Source: Paracoccaceae bacterium
GTDB taxonomy: Bacteria > Pseudomonadota > Alphaproteobacteria > Rhodobacterales > Rhodobacteraceae
Direction of reading: 5' to 3'
Assembly (NCBI GenBank): GCA_947449875.1
Contig: CANFSY010000015.1
Location: 1 to 33,204 of the forward strand
DNA length: 33,204 nucleotides
Shown here piece after piece: positions 8,477-32,106 of this stretch. Position numbers and translations under genes: made by a program. The notes beneath the pieces were generated by a model. That model was given only the letters and a program-made list of their open reading frames with translations, did no database searches and was not told the DNA's origin. Numbering within the stretch: the stretch's first letter is position 1; the number at the start of each line of letters is the position of its first letter.

Positions 8477-8953
8477 CTAAACCAAGGCATCCGCCCCGTC
8501 TGCTTTGGGGTTCAGCCGGATCGAGGCGATGTTCAACGCCGCCGCAATCGTGACCCAAGCGACATAGGGCACAAACAACAGCCCCGCGACAAAATCGACG
8601 CCAAAGAAGCACCACGTCGTCGCAGCCACGCTGGCCCACAAAAAGCCCATCACAATCAACGCCGTGCGCATCCGGTGCAGGCCAAAGAAGATCGGTGACC
8701 ACAGCGTGTTCAGCGCGATCTGCAACGCCCAAAAGCCCATGCCCTGCGCCGCCCCCGGCAAGGGCGCCACCCGCATCGCCGCCAGCGACATCAGAATGTA
8801 AAGCGTGGTCCAAGCAACCGGAAAAACCCAGCGCGGCGGGAACCAATCGGGTTTGATCAAGCCTTCATACCAAGGGCCGGGCTGAAACATCGCCCCCGTC
8901 GCCGCCGCCGCCATACACGAGGCGAGAAAGGTGAAAAACAAGCTCCAGTCCAT
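8477..8953 (-). CDS. tspO: TspO/MBR tryptophan-rich sensory protein
   Basis: This 158-aa membrane protein has five hydrophobic helices. It carries TspO family signatures PGPWYEGLIKPDWFPPRWVFPVAWTT (split by its Pro/Trp positions) and ALNTLWSPIFFGLHR. In Rhodobacter sphaeroides TspO sits in the outer membrane, binds or moves tetrapyrrole intermediates, and restrains photosynthesis gene expression under oxygen. Here it lies 35 bases downstream of crtB on the same strand, the same neighbour as in Rhodobacter, so co-expression with crtI-crtB is likely. AAGGGGG precedes the ATG. Confidence 0.95.
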   Translation of the reverse strand: MDWSLFFTFLASCMAAAATGAMFQPGPWYEGLIKPDWFPPRWVFPVAWTTLYILMSLAAMRVAPLPGAAQGMGFWALQIALNTLWSPIFFGLHRMRTALIVMGFLWASVAATTWCFFGVDFVAGLLFVPYVAWVTIAAALNIASIRLNPKADGADALV

Positions 8954-8988
8954 AGCGGCCCCCTTGGCGTCTTGACCGCTTACTTATG

Positions 8989-10014
8989 TCACGCGCCCGC
9001 CCGATCCAAGGAGCGATTGGCGCGATCTTTGCGTTCCAACTGGGCAAGAGCTGCAAAAAGGGCGTCAGACCGGCTAAAGCGCGTGCTTTTGCGCGCAGCG
9101 GCGTCGACAAGAAAGGCCACCTCGGGCTCTGGCGCGGCATGCAGAACGGCCGAAACCGGCCAAACCGCCGTCGCCGCCGTTTGCAGCACTGACAGACTCA
9201 ACCAACCCAGCTTTTGGCGGCTTGTGGTGCGGGCGCGGGCAGAAAAACTGTCGTAGTTCAACCGCGCCACGGCCCCGCCGATACCGGCATAGACATGGCG
9301 CGCGGCAAAGATGCCCGGACGGCAGGATAGGGGCAGCACGGGCACGCCGGTTGTGGAGCGTTCATAAAACACATCCGCCTGATCCAGCAGGCGTTTGGTC
9401 AAAGCGGGCAAGGCGGGATGGGCGGTGGGGGCGGCCAAAAGGGCGGCGGGGTCAATCCCCACCTCGGCCAGCCAGTCCAGCGGCAGGTACAAGCGACCCT
9501 CGCGGGCATCTTCGCCCACATCGCGGGCGATGTTGGTCAACTGCATCGCAAGGCCCAAATCGCAGGCCCGCGCCAAAGCATCAGCGTCGCGCACCCGCAT
9601 CAAGACGCACATCATGGCCCCAACGGCGCTGGCAACGCGGGCGCAATAGGCCAAAAGGTCAGGCATGGATTGGTATTGGCGGCCAAAGGCATCCCATGCC
9701 AGCCCTTCCAACAACGCCTCGGGCAGGGCGCGGGGCATGTCGAAATCTTGCACCACAGCGGCAAAGGCGCGGTCAGCGGGCACGTTGCGGGGGCGTCCGG
9801 CATAGACCAGATCCAGCCTGTCACGCAGGGCCAAAACGGCGGGGGCCTTATCGGCGCTGTCGTCCACCGCATCATCGGCCAAGCGGCAAAAGGCATATAG
9901 CGCCAAGGCCGGATCGCGCACTTTGGCGGGCAGCAGCTTAGATGCGGCATGAAACGACAGCGACCCTGTGCGGATCGCCTCGCGGCAGTGGTGCAAATCT
10001 TGCGGAGCGATCAT
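8989..10014 (-). CDS. crtB: Phytoene synthase
   Basis: This 341-aa enzyme condenses two geranylgeranyl diphosphates to phytoene, the first committed carotenoid step. The two Mg-binding Asp motifs are visible: DDAVD at 47-51 and DVGED at 165-169, the latter in NIARDVGEDAREGRLYLP. The length is typical. Its ATG overlaps the crtI stop (ATGA at 10014-10011), so the two are translationally coupled. tspO follows 35 bases downstream. Confidence 0.96.
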   Translation of the reverse strand: MIAPQDLHHCREAIRTGSLSFHAASKLLPAKVRDPALALYAFCRLADDAVDDSADKAPAVLALRDRLDLVYAGRPRNVPADRAFAAVVQDFDMPRALPEALLEGLAWDAFGRQYQSMPDLLAYCARVASAVGAMMCVLMRVRDADALARACDLGLAMQLTNIARDVGEDAREGRLYLPLDWLAEVGIDPAALLAAPTAHPALPALTKRLLDQADVFYERSTTGVPVLPLSCRPGIFAARHVYAGIGGAVARLNYDSFSARARTTSRQKLGWLSLSVLQTAATAVWPVSAVLHAAPEPEVAFLVDAAARKSTRFSRSDALFAALAQLERKDRANRSLDRAGA

Positions 10015-11573
10015 TCGGCAGCCATCCTTCGGGCCATGCGGCGGGGCGCATCGGGCACCAGTTTTCCCAAAACCTCGGCGCTGGAAATCACCCCCGGCAG
10101 GCCTGCGCCGGGATGGGTGCCAGCGCCCACCAGATACAGCCCCTTCGCCTCTTCCGAGACGTTATGCGGGCGAAACCAAGCCGATTGCAAAATGCGCGGT
10201 TCAATCGAAAAACCGCTGCCATAGGGCGACAGGTAGCGGGTTTCAAAGCTGTTGGGGGTAAAGACCAATTGTTCGGTCAAATGATCGCCCAAATCCGGCA
10301 ACAAACGCTCTTCCAGCATCTTTTGCATCTTTTGGCGATAGGGCTCGGCCTCGGCCGCCCAGTCGGTTTGGCCTATGCCAAGGTGCGGCACGGGGGACAG
10401 GGCGTAAAACGTATCATCGCCCGCTGGCGCTGCCGAAGGATCGGTAACGGTGGGGCGATGCACATACAGGCTCATATCCTCGGCCAGTTTGCCGCGGATG
10501 AAGATGTCGCGGATATGCTGTTTATAGCGCGGGCCGACGACGATGGTATGGTGGCCGACATCGGGCCATTTCAGCTTGGTGCCCTTGGTGCCAAAGTACC
10601 AGACAAACAGCCCCATCGACCACCGCTTGCGGGCCAGCTTCGCCTGTGTCCAGCTTTTGCGCGGATGGTTGCGCAGCAACCGGTCGTAGGTGTGCCCCGA
10701 ATCAGCGTTCGAGACGACCACATCCGCCGCCAGCACCTGCCCGTCGGTCAACCGCACACCCGTGGCGCGGCCGTCTGACAGCAAAATCTCGTCCACCTCG
10801 GCGTTCAGGCGCAAGGTGCCGCCTTGGTCGCCAATCGCCCCCGCCATGGCCAAAGCAATCGCCGCCACCCCGCCCATGGCGTAATGAACACCGAATTCCT
10901 TTTCCAGATGCGAGACGAGGATATACATCGACGTCACATGAAACGGGTCGCCGCCGATAAACAGCGGGTGAAACGACAAGGCAAAGCGCAAGCGTTCGTC
11001 TTTGACGCGCGATGCGGCATGGGCATAGACCGACTTATCCGCCCGTAACGCGGCAAAGGTCGGCAAAACCTTGATCAGGTCCCACAGCTTGTGCATCGGG
11101 CGGCGGCCAAGGTCTTCGAAGCCAAAGGCATAACGACGCTCGGAATCCTTTAAAAAGCGGTCGTAGCCGGGCAAATCGCCGGGCGACAGGCGGGCCACCT
11201 CGGCGCGCATGGCGTCGGTGGACTGGCGGGCGGTGAAGTTTGACCCATCCGGCCAGCGGATTTCATAGAACGGATCCATCGCGCGCAGATCGACATCGCG
11301 GTCAAAATCGCGGCCGCAGGCGGCCCAAAGCTCGCGCAGCACTTGCGGCACGGTCACGATGGTCGGCCCCAGATCGAAGCGGTAGCCGCCTTGGCTGATC
11401 GAAGACCCGCGCCCGCCCGGCATATCCAAGCGGTCAATCACGGTGACACGGTAGCCCTTGGCCCCCAGCCGCATCGCCGCCGCAAGGCCGCCAAGGCCTG
11501 CGCCGATGACAATCGCGTCAGACCCCGCGTTCGGGGTGGATTCAGAGGGGCGGGGTTTGGATTCTGTCAGCAT
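10011..11573 (-). CDS. crtI: Phytoene desaturase
   Basis: This 520-aa FAD enzyme converts phytoene to neurosporene (three steps) or lycopene (four). The N-terminal dinucleotide motif VIGAGLGGLAAA is at about 22-33 and is followed by PGGRGSS. The C-terminal CrtI signature GAGTHPGAGLPGVISSAE is present. The usual Rhodobacter product is neurosporene, which fits with crtA nearby, but step number cannot be read from sequence. It is divergent from crtA across a ~130-base regulatory region with two PpsR-type palindromes. No strong ribosome-binding site is visible before the ATG at 11573. Confidence 0.96.
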   Translation of the reverse strand: MLTESKPRPSESTPNAGSDAIVIGAGLGGLAAAMRLGAKGYRVTVIDRLDMPGGRGSSISQGGYRFDLGPTIVTVPQVLRELWAACGRDFDRDVDLRAMDPFYEIRWPDGSNFTARQSTDAMRAEVARLSPGDLPGYDRFLKDSERRYAFGFEDLGRRPMHKLWDLIKVLPTFAALRADKSVYAHAASRVKDERLRFALSFHPLFIGGDPFHVTSMYILVSHLEKEFGVHYAMGGVAAIALAMAGAIGDQGGTLRLNAEVDEILLSDGRATGVRLTDGQVLAADVVVSNADSGHTYDRLLRNHPRKSWTQAKLARKRWSMGLFVWYFGTKGTKLKWPDVGHHTIVVGPRYKQHIRDIFIRGKLAEDMSLYVHRPTVTDPSAAPAGDDTFYALSPVPHLGIGQTDWAAEAEPYRQKMQKMLEERLLPDLGDHLTEQLVFTPNSFETRYLSPYGSGFSIEPRILQSAWFRPHNVSEEAKGLYLVGAGTHPGAGLPGVISSAEVLGKLVPDAPRRMARRMAAE

Positions 11574-11588
11574 GGGCCCACGATATAC

Positions 11589-11606
11589 TGTCTAGTTCAA
11601 TTTACA
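11589..11606. promoter_or_regulatory. PpsR/CrtJ-type palindrome 1 (crtI-proximal)
   Basis: The sequence TGTCTAGTTCAATTTACA fits the TGT-N12-ACA operator of the redox/light repressor PpsR (CrtJ). It covers the putative -10 of crtI and lies 16 bases upstream of the crtI ATG. Its centre is 76 bases from palindrome 2, which fits the pairwise binding known for this repressor. Confidence 0.75.
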
Positions 11607-11627
11607 ATACTTGCCTTTCTATTGCAA
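11599..11627 (-). promoter_or_regulatory. Candidate crtI-crtB-tspO promoter
   Basis: On the minus strand TTGCAA (11627-11622) and TAAATT (11604-11599) are spaced by 17 bases, each with 4 of 6 consensus positions. The -10 lies inside palindrome 1, so repressor binding would block polymerase. Confidence 0.45.
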
Positions 11628-11664
11628 AATTTCTCTCAATCCGCTTTGCTATGCGGGCAGATAC

Positions 11665-11682
11665 TGTCAAACTCGTCTAACA
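11665..11682. promoter_or_regulatory. PpsR/CrtJ-type palindrome 2 (crtA-proximal)
   Basis: The sequence TGTCAAACTCGTCTAACA fits TGT-N12-ACA. It lies just upstream of the crtA ribosome-binding site, probably overlapping the transcription start of the crtA-bchI-bchD-bchO operon. Confidence 0.72.
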
Positions 11683-11702
11683 CAGGTTTCAGGAGGCGCA
11701 TC

Positions 11703-12413
11703 ATCAACGTCGTCACGCTCTCGCTGTTTCGCTTCCCCACACTCGCAACCCGTCTTTGGGTTCTGGGGCAGATGGGGGCTGCGCGGGTGTCGTTTCTGCG
11801 CATGCCGCAGGTGGGGTTTTGGAAGCTGTGCGGGTCGGGCACGGGGCAAGGCTTTACGCCCAAGCCCAATTTCGGCGTATGGGCGATCTTGGCCACGTGG
11901 CCAGATGCGCAAACCGCGCGCACCAGCGTTGACACCGCCCCCGTCTATCGCCGCTGGCGCAACCACGCCGCCGAAAGCTGGACGATTTTGTTGGAACCCA
12001 CCTCGGCCCGTGGCTTGTGGTCAGGAAAAACGCCCTTTGTGCCGCCACCAGATGCCACGCCGCCCAAGGGCCCGATCGTGGCGCTGACCCGTGCGTCGAT
12101 GAAGGCATCCACCTTCCTGCGCTTTTGGCGGCGGGTGCCCGATATTTCTGCCGTCATCGGCCAAGACCCCAATGTGATCTTCAAGATCGGCATCGGCGAG
12201 GTGCCCTTGCTGCATCAAGTCACCTTCTCGATCTGGCCAGATGCCGCCGCTATGGCCAACTTTGCCCGCGGCAACGGCCCCCATGGCCGCGCCATCCAAG
12301 CGGTGCGCGCCGAAAACTGGTTTTCCGAAGAGCTTTACGCCCGCTTTCGCATTCTGGACGATTGGGGCAGTTGGGGCGGGCAAAGCCCCCTGATGAAAAA
12401 GGACGCAGCATGA
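11703..12413 (+). CDS. crtA: Spheroidene monooxygenase (apparent AUC start codon)
   Basis: This 236-aa protein oxygenates spheroidene to spheroidenone in aerobic cells. The CrtA family N-terminus VVTLSLFRF and the blocks FWKLCGSGTGQGFTP, VIGQDPNVIFKIGIGEVP and LHQVTFSIWPDAAAM identify it. No ATG, GTG or TTG lies at the expected start. A perfect AGGAGG (11691-11696) is followed 6 bases later by ATC at 11703, which would give (M)NVVTLSLFRF, the family N-terminus. In-frame CTG (11664) and TTG (11646) lie upstream but lack ribosome-binding sites; the next ATG (11773) would cut into the conserved domain. Its stop overlaps the bchI start (ATGA), making it the first gene of crtA-bchI-bchD-bchO. Confidence 0.9.
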   Translation: MNVVTLSLFRFPTLATRLWVLGQMGAARVSFLRMPQVGFWKLCGSGTGQGFTPKPNFGVWAILATWPDAQTARTSVDTAPVYRRWRNHAAESWTILLEPTSARGLWSGKTPFVPPPDATPPKGPIVALTRASMKASTFLRFWRRVPDISAVIGQDPNVIFKIGIGEVPLLHQVTFSIWPDAAAMANFARGNGPHGRAIQAVRAENWFSEELYARFRILDDWGSWGGQSPLMKKDAA

Positions 12414-13414
12414 GCCAACCTTTCCCCTTCTCGGCCATCGTGGGTCAAGGCGCGATGAAGCAAGCCATGGTGCTGACCGCGATTGATCCGGGCATTGGCG
12501 GGGTTTTGGTGTTTGGCGACAGGGGCACGGGCAAATCCACCGCCGTGCGCGCTTTGGCCGCCCTATTGCCGGAAATCGAAGCGGTTGAGGGGTGTCCCGT
12601 CAACTCTGCCCGCATCGAAGATGTGCCCGATTGGGCCGGGCCAAAATCAGGCAAGATGGTCAAACGCCCCACGCCTGTCATCGACCTGCCCTTGGGGGCC
12701 ACCGAAGACCGCGTGGTCGGCGCGTTAGACATCGAACGCGCCCTGACACGCGGCGAAAAGGCCTTTGAACCCGGCCTTCTGGCCCGCGCCAATCGGGGCT
12801 ATCTGTACATCGACGAGGTCAACCTGCTGGAAGACCATATCGTCGATCTGCTGTTAGACGTGGCCCAATCCGGCCAAAACGTGGTGGAGCGGGAGGGCCT
12901 GTCGATCCGCCACGCCGCGCGCTTTGTGCTGGTGGGGTCAGGCAACCCCGAAGAGGGCGAACTGCGCCCGCAGTTGCTGGACCGTTTCGGCCTGTCGGTC
13001 GAGGTGAGCTCGCCACGTGACATAGAAACGCGGGTCGAGGTGATGCGCCGCCGCGATGCCTATGAGAACGACCATGCGGCCTTTATGAAGAAATGGCGCA
13101 CAAAAGACATGGCGCTGCGCAAGCAAATTCTGGCTGCGCGTGCGGCTTTGCCTGCGCTAAAGACCCCCGGTGCTGTGCTGCACGATTGCGCGGCTTTGTG
13201 CATAGCCCTTGGGTCAGACGGTTTGCGCGGAGAGTTGACCTTGCTGCGCGCCGCCCGCGCGATTGCGGCCTATGACGGGGCTGAAACGGTGACACGGGCA
13301 CATCTGAAACAGGTCGCCACCAGCGCCTTGGGCCACCGCCTGCGCCGCGATCCGCTGGACGAGGCGGGGTCGGCCTCGCGCGTGGCGCGGGTGGTGGAAG
13401 AAACCCTGCCATGA
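12410..13414 (+). CDS. bchI: Magnesium chelatase ATPase subunit I
   Basis: This 334-aa AAA+ ATPase works with BchD and BchH to insert Mg2+ into protoporphyrin IX, the first step committed to bacteriochlorophyll. Walker A GDRGTGKST is at 36-44 and Walker B YLYIDEVNLL at 131-140. The sensor/arginine-finger region VGSGNPEEGELRPQLLDRFG follows. The start at 12410 overlaps the crtA stop by ATGA and has AAGGA upstream. The stop overlaps the start of bchD (ATGA at 13411-13414). BchH is not in this window. Confidence 0.97.
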   Translation: MSQPFPFSAIVGQGAMKQAMVLTAIDPGIGGVLVFGDRGTGKSTAVRALAALLPEIEAVEGCPVNSARIEDVPDWAGPKSGKMVKRPTPVIDLPLGATEDRVVGALDIERALTRGEKAFEPGLLARANRGYLYIDEVNLLEDHIVDLLLDVAQSGQNVVEREGLSIRHAARFVLVGSGNPEEGELRPQLLDRFGLSVEVSSPRDIETRVEVMRRRDAYENDHAAFMKKWRTKDMALRKQILAARAALPALKTPGAVLHDCAALCIALGSDGLRGELTLLRAARAIAAYDGAETVTRAHLKQVATSALGHRLRRDPLDEAGSASRVARVVEETLP

Positions 13415-15078
13415 GCGATCCGCTGACGCCGTGGCAGCGCGCAGAACTGGCGCTGGCTGTGCTGGCGGTTGATCCTGCGGGTGTTAAGGGCCTGTGGCTG
13501 CGCGCCCGCAGTTCGGCGGTGCGCGATAGGGTCACGCAAGCCCTGCCCCTTGCACGGCGGATCCATCCGGGGTTGGATGACACGGCGCTGTTTGGCGGGG
13601 TTGATCTGGCTGCAACCTTGGCGGCAGGCAGTTTGGTTGCAACGGCTGGTCTTTTGGCGTCAACCGACCCTGTGATCCTGACCATGGCCGAACGCTGCCC
13701 CCTTGGCCTATCCGCCCGCCTGTCGCGCTGGCTGGACGAGACGGGGCCGTGCCTGATCACCCTTGATGAGGGGGCAGAGCCGGAAGAAAGCCTGCCCACT
13801 GGCCTGTCAGACCGCTTGGGCCTGTTTTTGGATCTGACAGAGGTTGGCTATTCTGACACGCAAGACATCACCCTGTCGCCCGATGCCATAGCCGCCGCCC
13901 GTGCGCGGCGTGCGACCACCACCTTGCCCAAAACGGCGCTGGAAAGCTTGACGACTGTGGCTGCGGCGATGGGCATCGCGTCGCTGCGGGCGCCGATGCT
14001 GGCCTTGGCCGCAGCACGGGCTTTGGCGGCGTGGCGCGGCGAGGATCAGGCGTCAGACACCACGCTGCGCCATGCGGCAGAGCTGACGCTGGCCCATCGC
14101 GGCGATCTGCCGCCGCAGGCGGAGGACAGCGACGCCCCACCGCCACCGCCAGAACCCCCTGACTCGCCCGACCAAGGCGATCAAGACCAAGAGCAAACCC
14201 AACAAGACCGCCTGCCCGATGACATCTTGCTGGAGGCGATCCGCGCCGCCCTGCCCGCCGATCTTTTGGCGCGGCTTGCGGCAGGCAAAGCGGCCCGCAG
14301 TGCCAAGGGGTCAGGCAGTGGGGCGGTGCGCAAAGGCAACCATCGCGGGCGTCCCCTGCCCTCTCGGCCCGGCACGCCGGGGTCGGGCAAGCGGATTGAT
14401 CTGGTGGCCACGCTGCGCGCTGCGGCCCCTTGGCAACCGCTGCGCCGCCGGGCGCCCGATGCGACACGGCTAGAGATTCGCCAAAGCGACCTGCGGTTGA
14501 AGCGGTATCAGGAAACCTCTGACAGGGTGCTGATCTTTGCGGTCGATGCCTCTGGCTCGTCGGCTTTGGCGCGGTTGGGCGAGGCGAAAGGCGCGGTAGA
14601 GTTGCTTTTGGCGCAGGCCTATGCGCGGCGCGACCATGTGGCGCTCATCGCCTTTCGCGGCACGGCGGCGGAACTCATGCTGCCGCCGACACGGTCTTTG
14701 GTGCAAACCAAGCGGCGGCTGGCATCGTTGCCCGGTGGCGGTGGCACACCCCTTGCAGCGGGGTTGCAGATGGCGTTTGAACTGGCGGGCCAGACCAAAG
14801 CGCGGGGCATGACGCCCACGGTGGCCCTGCTGACCGACGGGCGCGGCAATATCGCGCTGGACGGCACCGCCAACCGCGAGGCGGCCGAGGCTGACAGCCT
14901 GAAACTGGCCCGCGCCTTGCGCGCCACGGGCATTCCGGCGCTGGTGATTGACATCGCCAACCGCCCGCAACCCGCCCTGCGCCGCTTGGCAGAGGTGCTG
15001 GATGCCCCCTATCTGCCCCTGCCCCGCGCCGATGCCCAGCGCCTGTCTGCCGCTTTACAAGGGGCGCTGGGCAGCTAG
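13411..15078 (+). CDS. bchD: Magnesium chelatase subunit D
   Basis: This 555-aa partner of BchI has a degenerate N-terminal AAA+ domain without a proper Walker A. A central low-complexity linker at about 244-268 is rich in Pro, Asp and Gln (APPPPPEPPDSPDQ). The C-terminal integrin-I (von Willebrand A) domain carries the MIDAS motif DASGSS at about 378-383 and a later LLTDGRGNIAL. This layout is diagnostic for BchD. It is coupled to bchI by ATGA, and its TAG stop is directly followed by the ATG of bchO. Confidence 0.97.
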   Translation: MSDPLTPWQRAELALAVLAVDPAGVKGLWLRARSSAVRDRVTQALPLARRIHPGLDDTALFGGVDLAATLAAGSLVATAGLLASTDPVILTMAERCPLGLSARLSRWLDETGPCLITLDEGAEPEESLPTGLSDRLGLFLDLTEVGYSDTQDITLSPDAIAAARARRATTTLPKTALESLTTVAAAMGIASLRAPMLALAAARALAAWRGEDQASDTTLRHAAELTLAHRGDLPPQAEDSDAPPPPPEPPDSPDQGDQDQEQTQQDRLPDDILLEAIRAALPADLLARLAAGKAARSAKGSGSGAVRKGNHRGRPLPSRPGTPGSGKRIDLVATLRAAAPWQPLRRRAPDATRLEIRQSDLRLKRYQETSDRVLIFAVDASGSSALARLGEAKGAVELLLAQAYARRDHVALIAFRGTAAELMLPPTRSLVQTKRRLASLPGGGGTPLAAGLQMAFELAGQTKARGMTPTVALLTDGRGNIALDGTANREAAEADSLKLARALRATGIPALVIDIANRPQPALRRLAEVLDAPYLPLPRADAQRLSAALQGALGS

Positions 15079-15951
15079 ATGCGCACGCCAACACTCCCCG
15101 CCTTTTGGCCCTATCGCGCGGCATCGCGCCATATCGCGTGCAAGCCGCATCTGTGGCATGTGCAAGAGGTGGGCACAGGCCCGCTGGTGCTGCTGCTGCA
15201 CGGCGCGGGCGGGGCAACGCACAGCTTTCGCCATCTGATTCCGCTGTTAAGCCCGCACTACCGGATCGTGGCGCTGGATTTGCCCGGGCAGGGATTTACC
15301 GTTCTGGGCGCGCGGGGGCGCTGCGGGCTGGACCCTGTGGCAGAAGATATCGCGGCCCTGATCCGGCAACAGGGCTGGCAGCCCTTTGCCGTGATCGGCC
15401 ATTCCGCAGGGGCGGCAATCGCGCAACGGTTGGCGGAGATTTTGCCGCTTAAGGCGTTGGTCGGCATCAACTCTGCCCTTGGCCCGTTTGAAGGGGTAGA
15501 GGGCTGGCTTTTCCCTGTCATGGCAAAGGCACTGGCGCTGACCCCCTTTGTGCCCAACCTGTTTAGCAAACTGGCCGGAACCCCATCACAGGTGCGCCAG
15601 TTGATTGCCACCACGGGCAGCACGCTGGATGACGCAGGGCTGGCCCAGTACCTGCATCTGATGCAAAAGCCTGCGCATGTCGGTGCGACCTTGGCGATGA
15701 TGGCGCAATGGACGCTGAAGTCGTTTTTGCGGCGGCTGAAGGATCAAAAGGTGCCAAGCTTGCTGCTGACCGCCACCAACGACCGCGCCGTGCCGCCTGC
15801 CGTGTCAGCACGCGCAGCGCAGGTTATGCCAAACGCCACTTGGCACGACATCGCAGGCTATGGCCATTTGGTGCATGAAGAGGCGGCACAGCTGGTCGCC
15901 GCGCCGATCTTGGCGTTTCTTGCAAACCTGCACGCGGCAGGTGCCGCATGA
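15079..15951 (+). CDS. bchO: Alpha/beta hydrolase BchO, Mg-chelatase accessory protein
   Basis: This 290-aa alpha/beta-hydrolase is found almost only next to bchID in purple bacteria. The oxyanion region LLLHGAGGATHSF and the nucleophile elbow IGHSAGAA (Ser at about 109) are present. The late catalytic Asp (TATNDRAVPP) and His (YGHLVHEE) are also in place, so the triad looks intact. Its substrate is unproven; it is usually described as a Mg-chelatase accessory protein. The ATG abuts the bchD stop with no gap. It ends five bases from the convergent hemC, and no terminator is visible between them. Confidence 0.92.
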   Translation: MRTPTLPAFWPYRAASRHIACKPHLWHVQEVGTGPLVLLLHGAGGATHSFRHLIPLLSPHYRIVALDLPGQGFTVLGARGRCGLDPVAEDIAALIRQQGWQPFAVIGHSAGAAIAQRLAEILPLKALVGINSALGPFEGVEGWLFPVMAKALALTPFVPNLFSKLAGTPSQVRQLIATTGSTLDDAGLAQYLHLMQKPAHVGATLAMMAQWTLKSFLRRLKDQKVPSLLLTATNDRAVPPAVSARAAQVMPNATWHDIAGYGHLVHEEAAQLVAAPILAFLANLHAAGAA

Positions 15952-24696: not shown

Positions 24697-26097
24697 TCAA
24701 TAGCGGTAATGTTCGCTCTTGAAGGGCCCATCAACCTTGACGCCGATGTAGCTGGCCTGTTCGGGGCGCAGCTGCGTGAGCTTCACGCCGATTTTCTTCA
24801 GATGCAGGCGGGCGACCTTTTCATCCAGCTCTTTGGGCAGAATGTAGACGCCGGGCGCATAGGATTTGCCCTTGGTCCACAGTTCCAGCTGGGCCAGCAC
24901 TTGGTTGGTGAAAGACGCGCTCATCACGAAGGACGGGTGGCCGGTGGCGTTTCCAAGGTTCAAAAGGCGGCCTTCGGACAGCAGGATGATGCGGTGCCCG
25001 TTGGGCATTTCGATCATGTCCACTTGTTCTTTGATGTTGGTCCATTTGTGGTTGCGCAGAGCGGCCACTTGAATTTCGTTGTCAAAGTGGCCGATGTTGC
25101 CGACGATGGCCATGTCTTTCATCGCGCGGATATGCTCGATCCGGATCACGTCTTTGTTGCCGGTGGTGGTGATGAAGATATCGGCCGATCCAACCTCGTC
25201 CTCAAGCAGGGTCACTTCGAACCCGTCCATCGCGGCTTGCAGGGCGCAGATCGGGTCAACTTCCGTCACCTTCACCCGCGCACCAGCCCCGCGCAGCGAC
25301 GCGGCAGAGCCTTTGCCAACATCGCCGTAGCCGCACACGACAGCAACTTTGCCCGCCATCATGGTATCGGTGGCGCGGCGGATGCCGTCGACCAGCGATT
25401 CCTTGCAGCCGTACTTGTTGTCGAACTTCGACTTGGTGACAGAATCGTTCACGTTGATCGCGGGGAAGGGCAGCTGGCCTGCCTTGTGCAGCTCGTACAA
25501 ACGGTGCACGCCGGTGGTGGTTTCTTCGGACACGCCCTGAATGGCGGCGCGTTGTGCGGTGAACCAGCCGGGCGAGGCGGCGAGGCGCTTTTTGATCTGG
25601 TTGAACAGGCAGACTTCCTCGTCCGATGTCGGAACGGCGATCAGATCGGTTTCGCCCGCTTCCACCCGCGCACCCATCAGGATGTACAGCGTGGCATCGC
25701 CGCCATCGTCAAGGATCATGTTGCAGGTGCCGCCCACGCCGCCGAATTGAAAGATGCGGTCGGTGTAATCCCAATAGTCTTCCAGCGTTTCGCCCTTGAT
25801 GGCGAAGACAGGCGTGCCAGAGGCGGCAATGGCGGCAGCGGCGTGATCTTGCGTCGAGAAGATGTTGCACGAGGCCCAACGCACATCAGCGCCCAACGCT
25901 TTGAGCGTTTCGATCAAGACGCCGGTTTGGATCGTCATGTGCAACGATCCGGCAATCCGCGCGCCTTTGAGGGGCTGGCTGGCGCCGAATTCTTCGCGGC
26001 AGGCCATCAGGCCGGGCATTTCGGTTTCTGCGATGGTCAGTTCCTTGCGACCGAAATCTGCAAGAGCAATATCTTTGACGATGTAATCCGTGGTCAT
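24697..26097 (-). CDS. ahcY: Adenosylhomocysteinase (S-adenosyl-L-homocysteine hydrolase)
   Basis: This 466-aa NAD-dependent enzyme splits S-adenosylhomocysteine into adenosine and homocysteine, relieving product inhibition of methyltransferases, including those of bacteriochlorophyll and carotenoid synthesis. GSLHMTIQT is near residue 50, [16 protein letters not shown] in the middle, the NAD motif CGYGDVGKG at 255-263, and the C-terminal KSEHYRY is intact. The ATG at 26097 has GGAG upstream, and the family N-terminus [17 protein letters not shown] follows. In Rhodobacter capsulatus it lies next to the reg genes; here the HD gene separates it from hvrA. Confidence 0.97.
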
Positions 26098-26129
26098 GCG
26101 GCAAACTCCTTGAACCTGATCTTGCGGGG

Positions 26130-26158
26130 CAGATAGCATTCCTCAGGCAATTCGACAA
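26130..26158 (-). promoter_or_regulatory. Candidate ahcY promoter
   Basis: On the minus strand TTGTCG (26158-26153) and TATCTG (26135-26130) are 17 bases apart, 33 bases upstream of the ahcY ATG. I see no known S-adenosylhomocysteine or SAM riboswitch fold in the short leader. Confidence 0.4.
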
Positions 26159-26172
26159 CTCTTGGTGAACCG

Positions 26173-26763
26173 ATGAAGCAAGCACGCGCATGGCAACGAA
26201 TGCTGTCAGGCCGCAGGCTAGACCTGCTGGACCCGACACCCGTGGATATCGAGATCGAGGATATCGCCCACGGCTTGGCCTTTGTGGCGCGCTGGAACGG
26301 CCAGACGCGGGGGGATTGGCCCTATTCGGTGGCCGAGCATTCCTTGCTGGTGGAAGACGCCTATCGCCGCCAAGGGGGCGATGATCCGCGCTGGCAGTTG
26401 GCGGCTTTGCTGCATGACGCGCCCGAATATGTGATCGGCGACATGATTAGCCCCGTCAAAGCCGCCATAGGCACAGGGTATGGTGAGCTGGACGCCCGCC
26501 TGACCGCCGCGATCCACATCCGCTTTGGATTGCCCGCCGCGTTGCCCGTGCCCATCAAGAAGGCGATCAAACAGGCTGACAAAGTGTCCGCTTGGCTGGA
26601 AGCGGTTCACATCGCCGGATTTTCGCAGGCAGAGGCCGACAAGTTCTTCGGGCGGCCGGCAGCAGAATTGCTGGCGGGGTTGCAGATCAAACTGCGCCCG
26701 CCAGCCGTGGTGCGGGCCGAATTTATTGCGCGCCACAAGGCTTTACTGGAAAATATCGCCTAG
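26173..26763 (+). CDS. HD-domain hydrolase (YfbR/5'-deoxynucleotidase-like)
   Basis: This 196-aa metal-dependent phosphohydrolase has the HD ligands in SVAEHSLLVED (His), LLHDAPEYVIGDM (His-Asp) and a later conserved Asp in KQADKVSAW. The opening MLSGRRLDLLDPTPVDIEIEDIA (split) is typical of alphaproteobacterial YfbR-like proteins, which act on nucleoside monophosphates; the true substrate is unproven. GGTGA precedes the ATG. It is divergent from ahcY with 75 bases between them and convergent with hvrA across a shared terminator. Confidence 0.85.
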   Translation: MKQARAWQRMLSGRRLDLLDPTPVDIEIEDIAHGLAFVARWNGQTRGDWPYSVAEHSLLVEDAYRRQGGDDPRWQLAALLHDAPEYVIGDMISPVKAAIGTGYGELDARLTAAIHIRFGLPAALPVPIKKAIKQADKVSAWLEAVHIAGFSQAEADKFFGRPAAELLAGLQIKLRPPAVVRAEFIARHKALLENIA

Positions 26764-26827: not shown

Positions 26828-27139
26828 TTATATCGACAGGTCTTCCGGTGTATGGCCAGATGCCAGCGCCTGAAGGAACCAGCGCGGCTTGCGACCACGG
26901 CCCGACCAAGTATCGCTCGCATCTGCGGGGTTTGCATACTTTGCAACCGCGGGCGAGCGGCGGCGAACAACCGACGCACCCGTCAGTTCTTCCAGCGTAA
27001 AGCCCTTGGCGCGTGCCATTTCCTGCAGCTCGACCAAAGCGATCTTCTTTTTTCTATCTTCAAACGTTGCAATGGCTTTTGCCACGTGCTGCTGCAACTC
27101 TTTAAGTTCTTTAAGCGAAAGGTTGTTGATACTGTCCAT
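26828..27139 (-). CDS. hvrA: H-NS family DNA-binding regulator HvrA/Spb
   Basis: This 103-aa protein has an N-terminal dimerising coiled coil (LSLKELKELQQHVAKAI) and a C-terminal H-NS DNA-binding motif TWSGRGRKPRWF at 77-88. Size and layout equal HvrA of Rhodobacter capsulatus and Spb of R. sphaeroides, which bind curved DNA and tune photosynthesis (puf/puh) and nitrogen-fixation genes. The ATG at 27139 is chosen over 27154 because AGGA lies 8 bases upstream. In Rhodobacter it follows regA; here regA is missing and the next gene upstream is senC, 290 bases away. Confidence 0.92.
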   Translation of the reverse strand: MDSINNLSLKELKELQQHVAKAIATFEDRKKKIALVELQEMARAKGFTLEELTGASVVRRRSPAVAKYANPADASDTWSGRGRKPRWFLQALASGHTPEDLSI

Positions 27140-27429
27140 TTGTTGGATCCTCATATGGCCACGCGGTATTAATAGAATTTTGCCAAGACCTATGCAAGCA
27201 AATTTTAACCGAAGATCAAAAACCTGTGTCAACACTGCTTTAGGTTACCATCGGGGCCAAAAAATGGCGCTATTGTTTCGAAAGGAGAACCGATTGCCCT
27301 GCAGTGCTGGCGGATATTAACCTGTCAACGGCGGTTTTCTAACCAAACCGACCCAGCACCGGCAGCTGAAAAAACGCAGCGCCCGCTTAAGATGCGAGCG
27401 GTGCCGTCCTTCTCAAAGTGACACAAGAC
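27140..27429. other. AT-rich intergenic region between senC and hvrA (site normally holding regA)
   Basis: This 290-base stretch has no credible gene on either strand and no sequence resembling the highly conserved RegA helix-turn-helix region. It holds the putative hvrA promoter and, next to senC, a weak stem (27383-27387 with 27397-27401) followed on the minus strand by six Ts (plus-strand A-run near 27369-27374), a possible senC terminator. Confidence 0.7.
27202..27232 (-). promoter_or_regulatory. Candidate hvrA promoter
   Basis: On the minus strand a perfect TTGACA (27232-27227) is followed after 19 bases by TAAAAT (27207-27202). The leader to the ATG at 27139 would be about 55 bases. 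The long spacer may mean regulator dependence. Confidence 0.5.
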
Positions 27430-28041
27430 TTATTGGGCTTTCAGAAAACAAGCGGTCCTTTCGGCAACATCTTTTGATGACGTATCTCTTTGAAAAAAGT
27501 CAACAAATCCTACCTTGGGCAGCATAAGATACGTCATGGTTGTATGATCAACCATATACCCCGGATCGCGCTTTTCAGGAATTTGATAGTAGACCTTATA
27601 GGCCTTGGCAGCCGCGGCCGTTTGCGCCTCACTTCCTGTCAGGGCAACAAGACCGTCAAAGTTGCTGGCGTAATCCGCCAAGACGGCCGGAGTGTCACGC
27701 GCAGGGTCGACCGTGATAAAAACTGGCGTCACATCCACGCCAGTCTTGGCCAGCAACCCTGCCGCTTCAGCATTGCGGGCATTGTCCAAGGGGCAGACGT
27801 CGGGGCACGAGGCATAGCCGAAATAGACCAATGCAGGCTTGGACAGCACGGTTGCATCCGTAACAGCAGCGCCTTTGGTATCAAGCAGATCGAAAGCCCC
27901 GCCAATTTCGCCGCCCGCAATAGCGCCACTGCGGCAGGCGGCAAAGGCATCTGCGCTTTGCCTTTGCATGACCACATAACCTTGCCATCCAAGCAATGCT
28001 GCCAAAGTAATGGCGGCGACGCCGGTGTAGAACTTAAGCAT
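27430..28041 (-). CDS. senC: SCO1/SenC/PrrC family copper/thiol protein
   Basis: This 203-aa membrane-anchored thioredoxin-fold protein has an N-terminal membrane helix (about 4-25). The copper-binding CxxxC (Cys79 and Cys83 in YASCPDVCPLD) is followed by VFITVDPARDTP and the third ligand His166 in YMVDHTTMTY. SenC/PrrC helps assemble the CuA or CuB site of cytochrome oxidase and, in Rhodobacter, influences signalling through RegB/PrrB. The start at 28041 is favoured by GGAG six bases upstream; an in-frame ATG at 28053 is the alternative. regB and regA, its usual neighbours on either side, are absent. Confidence 0.93.
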   Translation of the reverse strand: MLKFYTGVAAITLAALLGWQGYVVMQRQSADAFAACRSGAIAGGEIGGAFDLLDTKGAAVTDATVLSKPALVYFGYASCPDVCPLDNARNAEAAGLLAKTGVDVTPVFITVDPARDTPAVLADYASNFDGLVALTGSEAQTAAAAKAYKVYYQIPEKRDPGYMVDHTTMTYLMLPKVGFVDFFQRDTSSKDVAERTACFLKAQ

Positions 28042-28241
28042 CAGAGTCTCCATTATCCGGCGGCATGGGGCAAGATTGGGCCTGCGCTTACCAACATAAG
28101 TCTGCTAGCGCCACAACATGCGTTATACATCACTATTATGTGTGTAAGCGTGATTTTCCAACTCCTCTGCGGGCCTATTTTCGGTTCAGCGGGGCATCTG
28201 TTATCGCAAACATTAACGAATTGGGCGAATTTGTGGCATCG

Positions 28242-28256
28242 TTAAAATATGTCTAA
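28242..28256. promoter_or_regulatory. CtrA-like half-consensus box upstream of the DivL-like gene
   Basis: TTAA-N7-CTAA (28242-28256) differs by one base from the CtrA consensus TTAA-N7-TTAA and lies 40 bases upstream of a perfect copy. Confidence 0.4.
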
Positions 28257-28262
28257 GTTCTA

Positions 28263-28287
28263 GATCAATAAAAATAAAGTTTTGATC
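28263..28287. repeat. AT-rich inverted repeat upstream of the DivL-like gene
   Basis: GATCAA (28263-28268) and TTGATC (28282-28287) form an inverted repeat with a 13-base AT-rich centre. The half-sites look like FNR half-sites in the wrong orientation and spacing, so a different regulator or a chance hairpin is possible. It lies in the 312-base senC-divL gap, which otherwise holds no gene. Confidence 0.4.
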
Positions 28288-28295
28288 CGGTTCCA

Positions 28296-28310
28296 TTAAG
28301 GCTTCGTTAA
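28296..28310. promoter_or_regulatory. Full-consensus CtrA binding site
   Basis: TTAAGGCTTCGTTAA matches TTAA-N7-TTAA and is followed by C, as in the Caulobacter consensus. It lies 43 bases upstream of the DivL-like ATG at 28354. Confidence 0.65.
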
Positions 28311-28353
28311 CTCAATTCGGCGTAGGCTTCCAGAATACTGCGGGTGAGGTGTG

Positions 28354-29934
28354 ATGCAAACCAACTGGGCGGCGGAAATTTTTGTGGTGTCCATTGCCCT
28401 GCTTGCCGCCGCCTTGGCAATTGCAGCGATCGTATTTCTGGAACGGCGCGGCAAGCTGCGGCCGACACCCCTGTTCGCCGACGACACGGCCACCACGGTT
28501 TTCCTGTTTGATGGCGAGGGGTTGATTGACGCCACGCCGTCTGCTCGTGCCCTTTTGGCATCCCGCGCGGTGCCCGGCTCTGCTTGGGTGAAGCTGCTGG
28601 CCTATCTTGAGCCGCACTTTGCCGACATCGCGGACAAACTCGCCCATCTGCCCGTTGCGGGGGTACTTACCCTGACATCGTCTAAAGATCCCGACAGCCC
28701 GCTGTTCTTGCAAGCCGAGGTGCGCGGCGGTTTAACCCGCCTTGTGCTTGCCGACCCCAACCAGACCGGCGCTGCCAAAGGCCAAGATCTGATGGCCCAG
28801 CGCGCGATGCAAGAAGAGCTAGACCTCTTGCGTGACACCGTAGCGCGCGCACCGGTTTTGATTTGGCGCGAAAGGTTCAACGGCGACATCGTGTGGGCGA
28901 ACACGGCCTATATGCTGAAAGCCATTGAAATCCTTGGCAATGGCCAAGACTTAACTTGGCCCCTGCCCCGGCTTTTTGAACGTCAGGCCACAGCGCAGGG
29001 CGTCACAGGGCAGCGTCAAAAGCTGTTGCCACGGCAGGGAAAGGCGAACTGGTACGATCTGACCGGCTTTGCCGAAGGCGAAGATCGGCTGACCTTTGCA
29101 AGCTCTGCCGATCAAGCCGTGCACGCCGAAACCGCGCTGCGCGACTTTATGATGACGCTGACCAAGACATTTGCCCACCTGCATGTGGGCCTTGCGATTT
29201 TTGACAAAGACCGCCAGCTGATTTTGTTCAACCCGGCTCTGTTGGATCTGACCGAGCTTCCGGCCGAATTTCTGGCAATGCGCCCGTCTTTGGTATCCTT
29301 TCTTGACGGAATGCGCGACCGCAGCATGATACCGGAACCCAAAGACTACCACAGTTGGCGCCGCCAGATGACAGAGATGGAACGCGCCGCGGCCTCGGGG
29401 CTATATGAAGACACATGGAGTTTGCCGGGCGGTCAGACCTACCGCGTGATCGGGCGCCCCCATCCCAACGGCGCGCTGGCCTTGATGATCGAGGATATCT
29501 CCAGCGAAATGCTGCGCACCCGCCGTTTTCGCGCTGATCTAGAGCTGAGCCAATCTGTCATGGACGAGGTTGACGAGGCCATCGTGGTCTTTTCTGCCGC
29601 TGGCCATCTGGTGATGTCAAACACCGCCTACGCACGCCTTTGGTCGGCAGAGCCTGACACCGGCCTGCGCGAGGAAACCCTGCGCGCGGTGTCAGCCCGC
29701 TGGCGGGCGCAATGCGCGCCAAGTGCGATCTGGGCCGATCTTGAGGACTTCGCCTCTAACCCCGGCGACCGCACCGCTTGGCGGGCCGAGGTGCGGCGAC
29801 TGGACGGGCGGCTGGTGGATTGCCGATTCGCTCCGCTGTCAGGTGGGGCCACGATGGCAACGTTCCGCCCGCACGATGCCGGCGGCGGGCCAAAAGCGGT
29901 GCCTGACGCGGAAGGTAGGCGCAAACGGGCGTAA
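28354..29934 (+). CDS. divL: PAS-domain protein, DivL-like, lacking a kinase domain
   Basis: This 526-aa protein has one N-terminal membrane helix (about 8-30, IFVVSIALLAAALAIAAIVF) and then several PAS-like domains. The clearest begin around FAHLHVGLAIFDKDRQLILFN and VMDEVDEAIVVFSAAGHLVMSN. No HisKA H-box and no HATPase N/G boxes follow; the protein ends in a polar tail. In many alphaproteobacteria DivL precedes tsaE, a phosphotransferase, a nucleotidyltransferase, addB and addA, exactly the order here, and Rhodobacter DivL is a PAS protein acting on the CckA-ChpT-CtrA pathway. The identity is inferred mainly from this synteny. GTGAGG lies upstream of the ATG; a GTG at 28351 is an alternative. 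Two CtrA-type boxes precede it. Confidence 0.72.
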   Translation: MQTNWAAEIFVVSIALLAAALAIAAIVFLERRGKLRPTPLFADDTATTVFLFDGEGLIDATPSARALLASRAVPGSAWVKLLAYLEPHFADIADKLAHLPVAGVLTLTSSKDPDSPLFLQAEVRGGLTRLVLADPNQTGAAKGQDLMAQRAMQEELDLLRDTVARAPVLIWRERFNGDIVWANTAYMLKAIEILGNGQDLTWPLPRLFERQATAQGVTGQRQKLLPRQGKANWYDLTGFAEGEDRLTFASSADQAVHAETALRDFMMTLTKTFAHLHVGLAIFDKDRQLILFNPALLDLTELPAEFLAMRPSLVSFLDGMRDRSMIPEPKDYHSWRRQMTEMERAAASGLYEDTWSLPGGQTYRVIGRPHPNGALALMIEDISSEMLRTRRFRADLELSQSVMDEVDEAIVVFSAAGHLVMSNTAYARLWSAEPDTGLREETLRAVSARWRAQCAPSAIWADLEDFASNPGDRTAWRAEVRRLDGRLVDCRFAPLSGGATMATFRPHDAGGGPKAVPDAEGRRKRA

Positions 29935-29977: not shown

Positions 29978-31441
29978 ATGACCGTGCAACCTTTGACCAT
30001 AGACCTCGTGACAGAGGCTGACACGACCCGACTGGGGCAAGCCTTGGCCCGCGTGGTGGGGGCGGGGGATTGTGTGTTGCTGGAAGGGTCGATCGGGGCG
30101 GGCAAATCGCACTTGGCCCGCGCCCTGATTCGCGCCCTGCGCAGCCCGAATGAAGAGGTGCCCTCTCCGACCTTCACGCTGGTGCAGACCTATCCGGGAC
30201 AGCCCGATATCTGGCACGCCGACCTGTACCGGCTGACCCATCCCGACGAGGTGCATGAGCTGGGGCTAGAGACGGCTTTTGGTGATTCGATTTGCCTGAT
30301 CGAATGGCCAGACCGCTTGGGCCGTTACGCACCCCAAAACCCCATCCGTCTGCGTCTGGACGCCAAAGGCGACGGCAGGGTGGCGCAGATCTGGCTTGGC
30401 GCACGGCCGCACGGCTTTGGCGCGGCACTTTTGGCCCATCTGCGTAAGCTACAAGCTGCGGAGTTTTTGGCGCAAGCCGGTTGGGGGCAGGCGCGCGCTG
30501 AACTTTTGGCCCAAGACGCCTCTGCCCGTCAGTACACGCGGCTTTTCGGGCACGGCACAGCGATATTCATGGATGCGCCGACCGGTCAGGCTGATTCGGT
30601 TGCGGATTTTGTCAAGGTTGACGGCCACCTTTTGTCGCTTGGCTTGTCGGCCCCGAAGATCCTTGCGCAAGACATAGCACAGGGTTTCTTGCTGCTGGAA
30701 GATCTGGGCGATGGCCTTTACCCCGCCGCCATCGCATCCGATCCGGCGGTGGAGGTTGGCCTTTATGAAGCCGCAACCGATGTTCTGGTGCACGTACAAT
30801 CCCACCCACCCGCCGCGAACCTGCCGGACCTGTCCGCGCAAGAGTGGGCCGAATCGGCAGGGCTTGTTGCAGATTGGTACGCTATGGCTATCACGGGCGC
30901 AGCGCAGGGGCGGGCCGAGATTACGGCAAGCCTAGCCCAAACGCTAAGGCTGCTGGCCGATGGGCCGCGCGTGATGATCTTGCGCGATTACCACGCCGAA
31001 AACCTGCTGTATCTGCCAGACCGCGCAGGTTTGGCGCGGGTCGGGGTGTTGGATTTTCAGTTGGCCCAAATGGGGCAGCCTGCCTATGATCTGGTGTCGT
31101 TGCTGCAAGACGCGCGGCGCGATGTGCCGCAGCGGATTAAAGCGGCAATGGTGGCGCGCTTTGCCGTGGCACGCGGCTTTGATCTGGCGGCGTTTCAGGC
31201 CAGCTACGCTGCGCTTGGCGCGCTGCGGGCCTTGCGGATTTTAGGGATTTTCGCGCGGCTGTGTCTGGCCGAAGGCAAGCCGAAGTATCTGGATTTGGTT
31301 CCGCGGGTTTGGGGACAGTTGCAAGCGAACCTGTCGCATCCCGCGCTGTCTGATCTGCGGGCCGTCTGCGCCCGTTTTCTGCCACCACCCGACCCGTCGG
31401 CCCTGCAAAAAGTGAGGGCGCAATGCAAACCTTCCCCCTGA
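29978..31441 (+). CDS. Fusion of TsaE ATPase with AmgK-like sugar kinase
   Basis: This is a 487-aa two-part protein. Residues 1 to about 155 are TsaE, the ATPase of the tRNA threonylcarbamoyladenosine complex: P-loop GSIGAGKSH at 37-45, SPTFTLVQTY, HADLYRL and IEWPDRLG. Residues from about 160 onward form an APH-type phosphotransferase with the catalytic loop RDYHAENLLYL (His about 339) and the metal-binding LDFQLAQ (Asp about 358). This half resembles AmgK, the anomeric MurNAc/GlcNAc kinase of cell-wall recycling, and murU follows directly, overlapping by 19 bases. No stop or frameshift separates the halves. The ATG at 29978 lacks a well-spaced ribosome-binding site; a better site serves a short overlapping frame starting at 29968. 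Confidence 0.9.
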   Translation: MTVQPLTIDLVTEADTTRLGQALARVVGAGDCVLLEGSIGAGKSHLARALIRALRSPNEEVPSPTFTLVQTYPGQPDIWHADLYRLTHPDEVHELGLETAFGDSICLIEWPDRLGRYAPQNPIRLRLDAKGDGRVAQIWLGARPHGFGAALLAHLRKLQAAEFLAQAGWGQARAELLAQDASARQYTRLFGHGTAIFMDAPTGQADSVADFVKVDGHLLSLGLSAPKILAQDIAQGFLLLEDLGDGLYPAAIASDPAVEVGLYEAATDVLVHVQSHPPAANLPDLSAQEWAESAGLVADWYAMAITGAAQGRAEITASLAQTLRLLADGPRVMILRDYHAENLLYLPDRAGLARVGVLDFQLAQMGQPAYDLVSLLQDARRDVPQRIKAAMVARFAVARGFDLAAFQASYAALGALRALRILGIFARLCLAEGKPKYLDLVPRVWGQLQANLSHPALSDLRAVCARFLPPPDPSALQKVRAQCKPSP

Positions 31442-32106
31442 TGCTGTTTGCGGCAGGCTTTGGGACCCGCATGGGGGCCCTGACGCGCGACAGGCCCAAA
31501 CCGCTGGTCACAGTGGCGGGGCGGGCGTTGCTGGACTATGCTTTAGACATCTCGACAGACCCCTGCGTAGCTCGCCGCGTGATGAACCTGCACTATCTGG
31601 GTGCACAGATCGCGCAGCATATCCAAGGCCAAGATATCGCCCTGTCGTGGGAGGATCCTATCCTTGACACCGGCGGTGGCCTGCGGGCGGCTTTGCCGCT
31701 GCTCGGATCGGGGCCTGTGATGATGCTGAACACCGATGCGGTTTGGACGGGCCAAAACCCTTTGGCGCAACTGGCGGCGGCGTGGGACCCTGACCGCATG
31801 GACGGGCTTTTGCTGCTGGCCCACCCCGATCAGGCGCGGGGGCATAAAGGGGCGGGTGACTTTTTGATCGACACTCAGGGCAGGCTATCACGGGCGAAGG
31901 GCGCATCTGGCCCCGTCTACCTTGGCGCGCAGATTTTGCGCACCGAAGGGTTGGCAGGCTTTGAGCAGCAAGCGTTTTCGCTGAACCTGCTGTGGGACAA
32001 GATGATCGCCCAAGGTCGCGCTTACGGCCTATTTCACCAAGGCGGCTGGTGCGATGTGGGCTACCGCGATGCCATCCCTTTGGCCGAAAGCCTGCTGCAT
32101 GAATAG
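31423..32106 (+). CDS. murU: N-acetylmuramate-1-phosphate uridylyltransferase-like nucleotidyltransferase
   Basis: This 227-aa sugar-phosphate nucleotidyltransferase has LFAAGFGTRMG at about 8-18 and RPKPLVTVAGR just after. DTGGGLRAALPLLG and MLNTDAVW follow in the middle. With AmgK it converts MurNAc-1-phosphate and UTP to UDP-MurNAc, a recycling route that bypasses MurA and so fosfomycin. Older annotations call such proteins mannose-1-phosphate guanylyltransferase; the AmgK neighbour favours MurU. It overlaps the fusion gene by 19 bases and addB by 8 bases, with GAGGG as ribosome-binding site. Confidence 0.87.
   Translation: MQTFPLMLFAAGFGTRMGALTRDRPKPLVTVAGRALLDYALDISTDPCVARRVMNLHYLGAQIAQHIQGQDIALSWEDPILDTGGGLRAALPLLGSGPVMMLNTDAVWTGQNPLAQLAAAWDPDRMDGLLLLAHPDQARGHKGAGDFLIDTQGRLSRAKGASGPVYLGAQILRTEGLAGFEQQAFSLNLLWDKMIAQGRAYGLFHQGGWCDVGYRDAIPLAESLLHE

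Follow-up and report, generated by a model that had tools for sequence, protein, structure and literature searches.

What has become of a reg locus in which hvrA and senC have kept their places and the two-component pair that belongs with them is missing? In the Rhodobacteraceae the RegB/RegA pair is seen as a conserved regulator with global control over both phototrophy and respiration. The available text of PMC9147068 describes regA and/or regB as invariably cotranscribed with senC, and that of PMC5359404 describes hvrA as transcriptionally coupled with regA. The stretch that raises the question, here called the window, is 33,204 nucleotides of a Paracoccaceae bacterium; it makes up contig C15 of the draft genome G000, which has 3.05 Mb in 179 contigs and is 86.6% complete.

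Two short spacers and the missing pair

The genes in the window run ahcY (minus strand), an HD-domain/YfbR-like gene (plus), hvrA (minus), senC (minus), a divL-like PAS gene (plus) and a tsaE-amgK fusion (plus), to the right of a block of tspO, crtB and crtI (minus) and bchI, bchD and bchO (plus) at 8477..15951, named by NCBIfam matches. On the hvrA side the locus is flanked by ahcY, for adenosylhomocysteinase (24697..26139; TIGR00936, 591.5 bits against a cut-off of 497.6), and by the HD-domain gene (26173..26763; PF12917, 31.9 bits against 25.9), whose position is common to relatives. senC (27430..28053) encodes a Sco1-type copper chaperone (PF02630, 137 bits). The PAS-domain gene (28351..29934; PF12860 PAS_7, 65.5 bits), in which a domain profile search found no kinase domain, owes its DivL label to the sequence-only reading of the window, given without comparison to the R. 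capsulatus DivL (rcc00042); the latter is described, in the portion of the source available, as a PAS domain protein. The fusion (29978..31441) matches TIGR00150 and PF02367 at its N-terminal end and NF045698 and PF01636 behind, and is followed by a nucleotidyltransferase gene which we take to be murU-like (31423..32106, plus), a neighbor found in relatives as well. Within the genus tsaE and amgK form one continuous match; in most other loci of the family they are two separate matches.

The hvrA-like gene, of the H-NS family (PF00816, 59.3 bits), has a longest open frame of 26828-27235, and its start is likely the ATG at 27154, from which close relatives' genes align at residue 1, giving 108 residues (26828..27154, minus). 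With this start the spacer between hvrA and senC, the site of regA in relatives, is 275 bp (27155..27429), and that between senC and the divL-like gene, the site of regB, is 297 bp (28054..28350). The earlier figures of 290 and 312 bp are thus replaced, and the statement that neither gap holds a gene stands.

How do these spacers compare with the same places in relatives? The locus was compared in 38 stretches from 37 genomes, found by tblastn with the window's proteins. Eleven of the 16 genomes of the genus bear RegBA (G001-G003 and G007-G014). A space of about 1.55-1.68 kb between senC and the PAS gene holds regB in all 11, and one of 656-688 bp between senC and hvrA holds regA in 10; in the eleventh, G014, hvrA is off its contig and there is no figure. 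The placement of the two genes was read out directly in G010 and was also taken from tblastn. In G000, G004, G006 and G015 the corresponding spaces are only about 275-300 bp (senC-hvrA) and 296-307 bp (senC-PAS); G005 has 297 bp on the PAS side, its contig ending in senC so that the other side is off it. The locus is contiguous and unbroken in G000, G006 and G015, and the window is collinear end to end with contig C49 of G006, except for short unaligned stretches around both spacers. senC and hvrA keep the order and strand that they have in the RegBA-bearing members, but the clade locus is without both genes of the Group-1 RegB/RegA (PrrB/PrrA) locus of the Rhodobacter type: regB is not beside senC, nor is regA between senC and hvrA. 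The comparison bears out what had been read from the window alone, that regA and regB are gone while their neighbors were kept.

Contigs C116 and C137 of G004 (L043 and L044) overlap in senC yet differ there (dS 0.44), and one of the two senC versions is nearly identical to that of G015 (dS 0.06 for the pair G015/G004-C137), so that the G004 bin may be mixed. Contig C116 by itself has both short spaces.

No remnant of RegA or RegB was recognized in the gaps of the five species: the best E was 0.13, and no match was better than those of shuffled sequence (five sequences per gap, 100 shuffles each, with at least 9 of 100 shuffles scoring as high in 20 of 20 comparisons). Likewise, blastn of the gaps against five relatives' loci gave a best E of about 0.05 among the matches listed. 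Within the clade the gaps give poor alignments, the exceptions being the promoter-like and CtrA-type sites discussed below.

The rest of each genome tells the same story. With the RegA protein of G010 as query, matches of 77-100% identity were found in 11 of the 16 genus genomes (in two pieces in G014), and the best matches in G000, G004, G005, G006 and G015 were of 27-30% identity and in the receiver domain only. The same 11 genomes pass the 350-bit cut-off of the RegB family NF033792 with 531-553 bits; the other five reach 75-84 bits. The sequence-only reading had allowed for a relocated copy. None was found in any of the five drafts, which is strong evidence, short of absolute at 87-95% completeness, and relocation is very unlikely. 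A second, divergent RegBA-like pair occurs in the RegBA-bearing genomes G001 (C17), G003 (C7, C24) and G010 (C2), with RegA-like proteins of 43-45% identity and RegB-like proteins of 160-190 bits, under the cut-off; it was not found in the five.

History of the loss in the genus and the family

In a tree of five proteins from this one locus, in which G005 is represented by little of senC and by no hvrA, the five RegBA-less species form one clade (support 100) that is grouped with the carriers G002, G008 and G010 (support 96). Because the five form one clade nested among carriers, the absence of regA and regB is most likely real rather than an assembly fault, and most likely reflects one ancestral event on the branch leading to the clade. 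It had been proposed that the ancestral order contained the pair, and the relatives that carry both genes at senC agree. It had also been proposed that the two genes were lost independently; one deletion step or two would leave the same finished state, which all five share, so that the loss itself stands and the number of steps does not follow from it.

What might have brought about the loss? The clade genomes are small, 2.9-3.2 Mb versus 3.4-4.9 Mb in congeners, and comparatively poor in signalling genes, with 12 RegB-like matches per genome versus 13-28, and 11-13 RegA-like matches versus 15-26. The simplest account is a shedding of signalling genes, in which RegBA would have gone as part of a genome reduction that removed many two-component systems. 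The loss does not follow from shrinkage alone, however, since G012 (100% complete, 3.8 Mb, without PufLM) is likewise poor in kinases (13) and regulators (15) and yet keeps RegBA.

Is the clade a singular case? The window had been taken as evidence of an unusual loss, and a search of titles and abstracts found no report of RegBA loss in the Rhodobacteraceae. We sampled 248 genomes of the family, nearly one per genus, 214 of them good. RegB was found in 229 of the 248 and 204 of the 214 by a search that scored no more than six candidates from each genome, with E 1e-70 as the upper limit, and that a broken or partial RegB would escape. Reaction-centre genes are present in 99 of the 248 and 79 of the 214. 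Seven of these 99 lack a RegB match (G068, G072, G107, G204, G205, G245 and G247, from tables crossed by hand); G072, G107 and G245, at 74-83% complete, are not counted as good. G204 was rejected as a loss, as regA is present and regB is cut by a contig end. Ten of the 214 good genomes are thus without a RegB match, 3 of 79 with a reaction centre and 7 of 135 without, which are small numbers, and the loss does not stand as a singular case.

Among 18 other RegB-less genomes, checked with the carrier G028 as control, a RegA orthologue is present in one (G204) and SenC in eight. A weak locus tree pairs G029 with G247 (support 100), and places G205 with the carrier G026 (99) and G107 with the carrier G025 (97); the remaining RegB-less genomes are poorly placed in it. 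With these placements several separate losses are likely, and RegBA loss in the family is uncommon but recurrent. Six of these genomes resemble the clade in having no RegB match and no RegA orthologue while keeping senC: G068, G205 and G247, with PufLM, and G029, G147 and G168, without. Unlike the clade, all six have no match to hvrA near senC, and in G029, G068, G205 and G247 the divL-like gene is unmatched there as well; in G168 it lies 404 bp from senC, and the short contig of G147 does not reach the divL side. In G068 the interval from tsaE to senC, which in relatives houses divL and regB, contains a 930-residue open frame (L183:5029-7818).

What the locus has kept

Did senC lose its function along with RegB? 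Such was the earlier expectation, which held that a role of SenC in signalling to RegB would be moot. In comparisons that left out G005, dN/dS for senC is 0.07-0.12 in nine of ten clade comparisons, the tenth, between the nearly identical genes of G015 and G004-C137, giving 0.27; for hvrA it is 0.04-0.08 in five, the sixth being undefined. Both genes are still under purifying selection. The SCO1-SenC domain of the protein retains the CxxxC motif of the Sco1/SenC chaperones, as CPDVC, and CcoN, a subunit of the cbb3 oxidase, is present in 15 of the 16 genus genomes, all five clade members included (it is split in two in G015, and G012 has none). In the available parts of PMC8475189 and PMC9147068, SenC is a copper chaperone for cbb3, needed at low copper. 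The purifying selection and the presence of cbb3 in all five suggest that SenC has most likely been retained as the oxidase's copper chaperone. These findings run counter to the idea of an idle SenC.

The spacers may have kept the control sites of the neighbors. A promoter-like site, TTGCAT-N17-TATTAA (27169..27197, minus), lies upstream of hvrA and ends 14 bp before it. A similar site at the same distance, a likeness for which there is no chance control, is found in G004, G006 and G015 and in the RegBA-bearing G002, G008 and G010; with a loose pattern no such site turned up in G001, G007, G009, G012, G025, G031 and G036. In the other spacer a box, TTAA-N7-TTAA (28296..28310), begins 55 bp before the divL-like gene; this matches the CtrA consensus, and CtrA may bind the box. 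Of 24 Rhodobacteraceae genomes, 22 have the exact box in front of their divL-like gene, and G005 and G013 have near matches. The window has a single copy of the pattern; L040-L077, 594 kb in all, have 31, those boxes among them. The divL-like gene's own control site is therefore probably older than the loss of RegBA. As a separate matter, a conserved putative CtrA-type box before this gene suggests that a gene of the CtrA pathway is itself under CtrA.

Might HvrA, or another two-component pair, have taken over RegBA's activation of the photosynthesis genes? The clade's hvrA genes are 87-92% identical to the window's and constrained, and HvrA is named among light-responsive factors in the available portion of PMC10037100. 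The gene is, however, equally constrained in the RegBA-bearing G002, G008 and G010 (dN/dS 0.04-0.06), and the clade's best kinase matches align with the RegB profile in its kinase part only, so that we regard a takeover as unlikely.

Probable phototrophy without RegBA

Is the clade phototrophic at all? PufL and PufM (PF00124) are found in 10 of the 16 genus genomes, including G004, G005, G006 and G015. A PF00124 search did not find them in the window's own bin, and a query of 19.9 kb from the photosynthesis cluster of G006 gave at least 15 matches there (40 of 236 candidates having been scored), two of them, at 67 and 77% identity, on contig C119, and the others repeat-like, of 33-43 bp. The making of photopigments that had been read from the window thus holds, by gene content, for the four sister species, while the window's bin yields only a partial cluster; for the window's own species phototrophy would rest on the bch and crt genes of the window and on the sister species. 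One repeat-like piece, L176:1099-1141, between bchH and bchL of the G006 cluster, recurs at a dozen places in the window's genome at 86-95% identity.

One might think that the clade is abandoning phototrophy as a whole, the loss of RegBA being one step of the decay, as the missing PufLM and the little puf-side cluster in the window's bin, and the lack of PufLM in five other genus genomes, would allow. This is quite unlikely, as the PufL and PufM frames are of intact length in all four other clade members, and the five genus genomes without PufLM outside the clade all keep RegBA. Binning often loses small replicons, and the five genomes are drafts, but it is highly improbable that regA and regB sit on an unbinned replicon or in the incomplete part of the bins, given that five separate bins agree, that RegA and RegB were found in all 11 other genus drafts (75-100% complete), even in pieces in G014, and that the locus itself is continuous in three of the five.

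We return to a loss of RegBA on the clade branch. What would control photosynthesis in its place? PpsR was found in all three clade genomes checked (G004, G006 and G015; 500-509 bits), and in G006 ppsR adjoins a B12-binding gene (PF02310, 30.6 bits, short of the 32.1 needed). G006 also has AcsF, PuhA, PuhB, PuhE, BchL, BchM and part of BchH. The RegA-type binding motif is degenerate. It would be PpsR, with its partner, that controls the clade's photosynthesis without RegBA. There is a precedent of sorts in Congregibacter litoralis KT71, an aerobic phototroph in which, in the available text of PMC2654016, PpsR is present and RegA and RegB are reported absent. KT71 differs in being a gammaproteobacterium, and that text does not describe a scar left by an earlier reg locus.

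Taken as a whole, the explanation that we consider probably right is that RegBA was lost on the clade branch and that the loss was tolerated. It would have been tolerated because PpsR and a PpaA-like partner stayed with the photosynthesis genes in their cluster, because SenC has its own task in supplying copper to the cbb3 oxidase, and because hvrA and divL have their own promoters in the remaining spacers. Photosynthesis would then proceed without activation by RegBA at low oxygen, which may suit an aerobic phototroph, as the AcsF of one genome hints. More tentatively, and with somewhat more doubt than belief, we suggest that a whole phototrophic clade has dropped RegBA control and runs on PpsR and its partner, with HvrA alone, and that RegBA may be optional for aerobic phototrophy, the loss being recurrent and about equally frequent in phototrophs and non-phototrophs of the family.

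That four of the five RegBA-less species still have reaction-centre genes suggests that RegBA is dispensable. Lacking both genes in a locus that is otherwise whole, the clade is a natural deletion experiment that separates SenC's role at the oxidase from signalling, and the RegBA-bearing sister species are matched controls for what RegBA does in such phototrophs.
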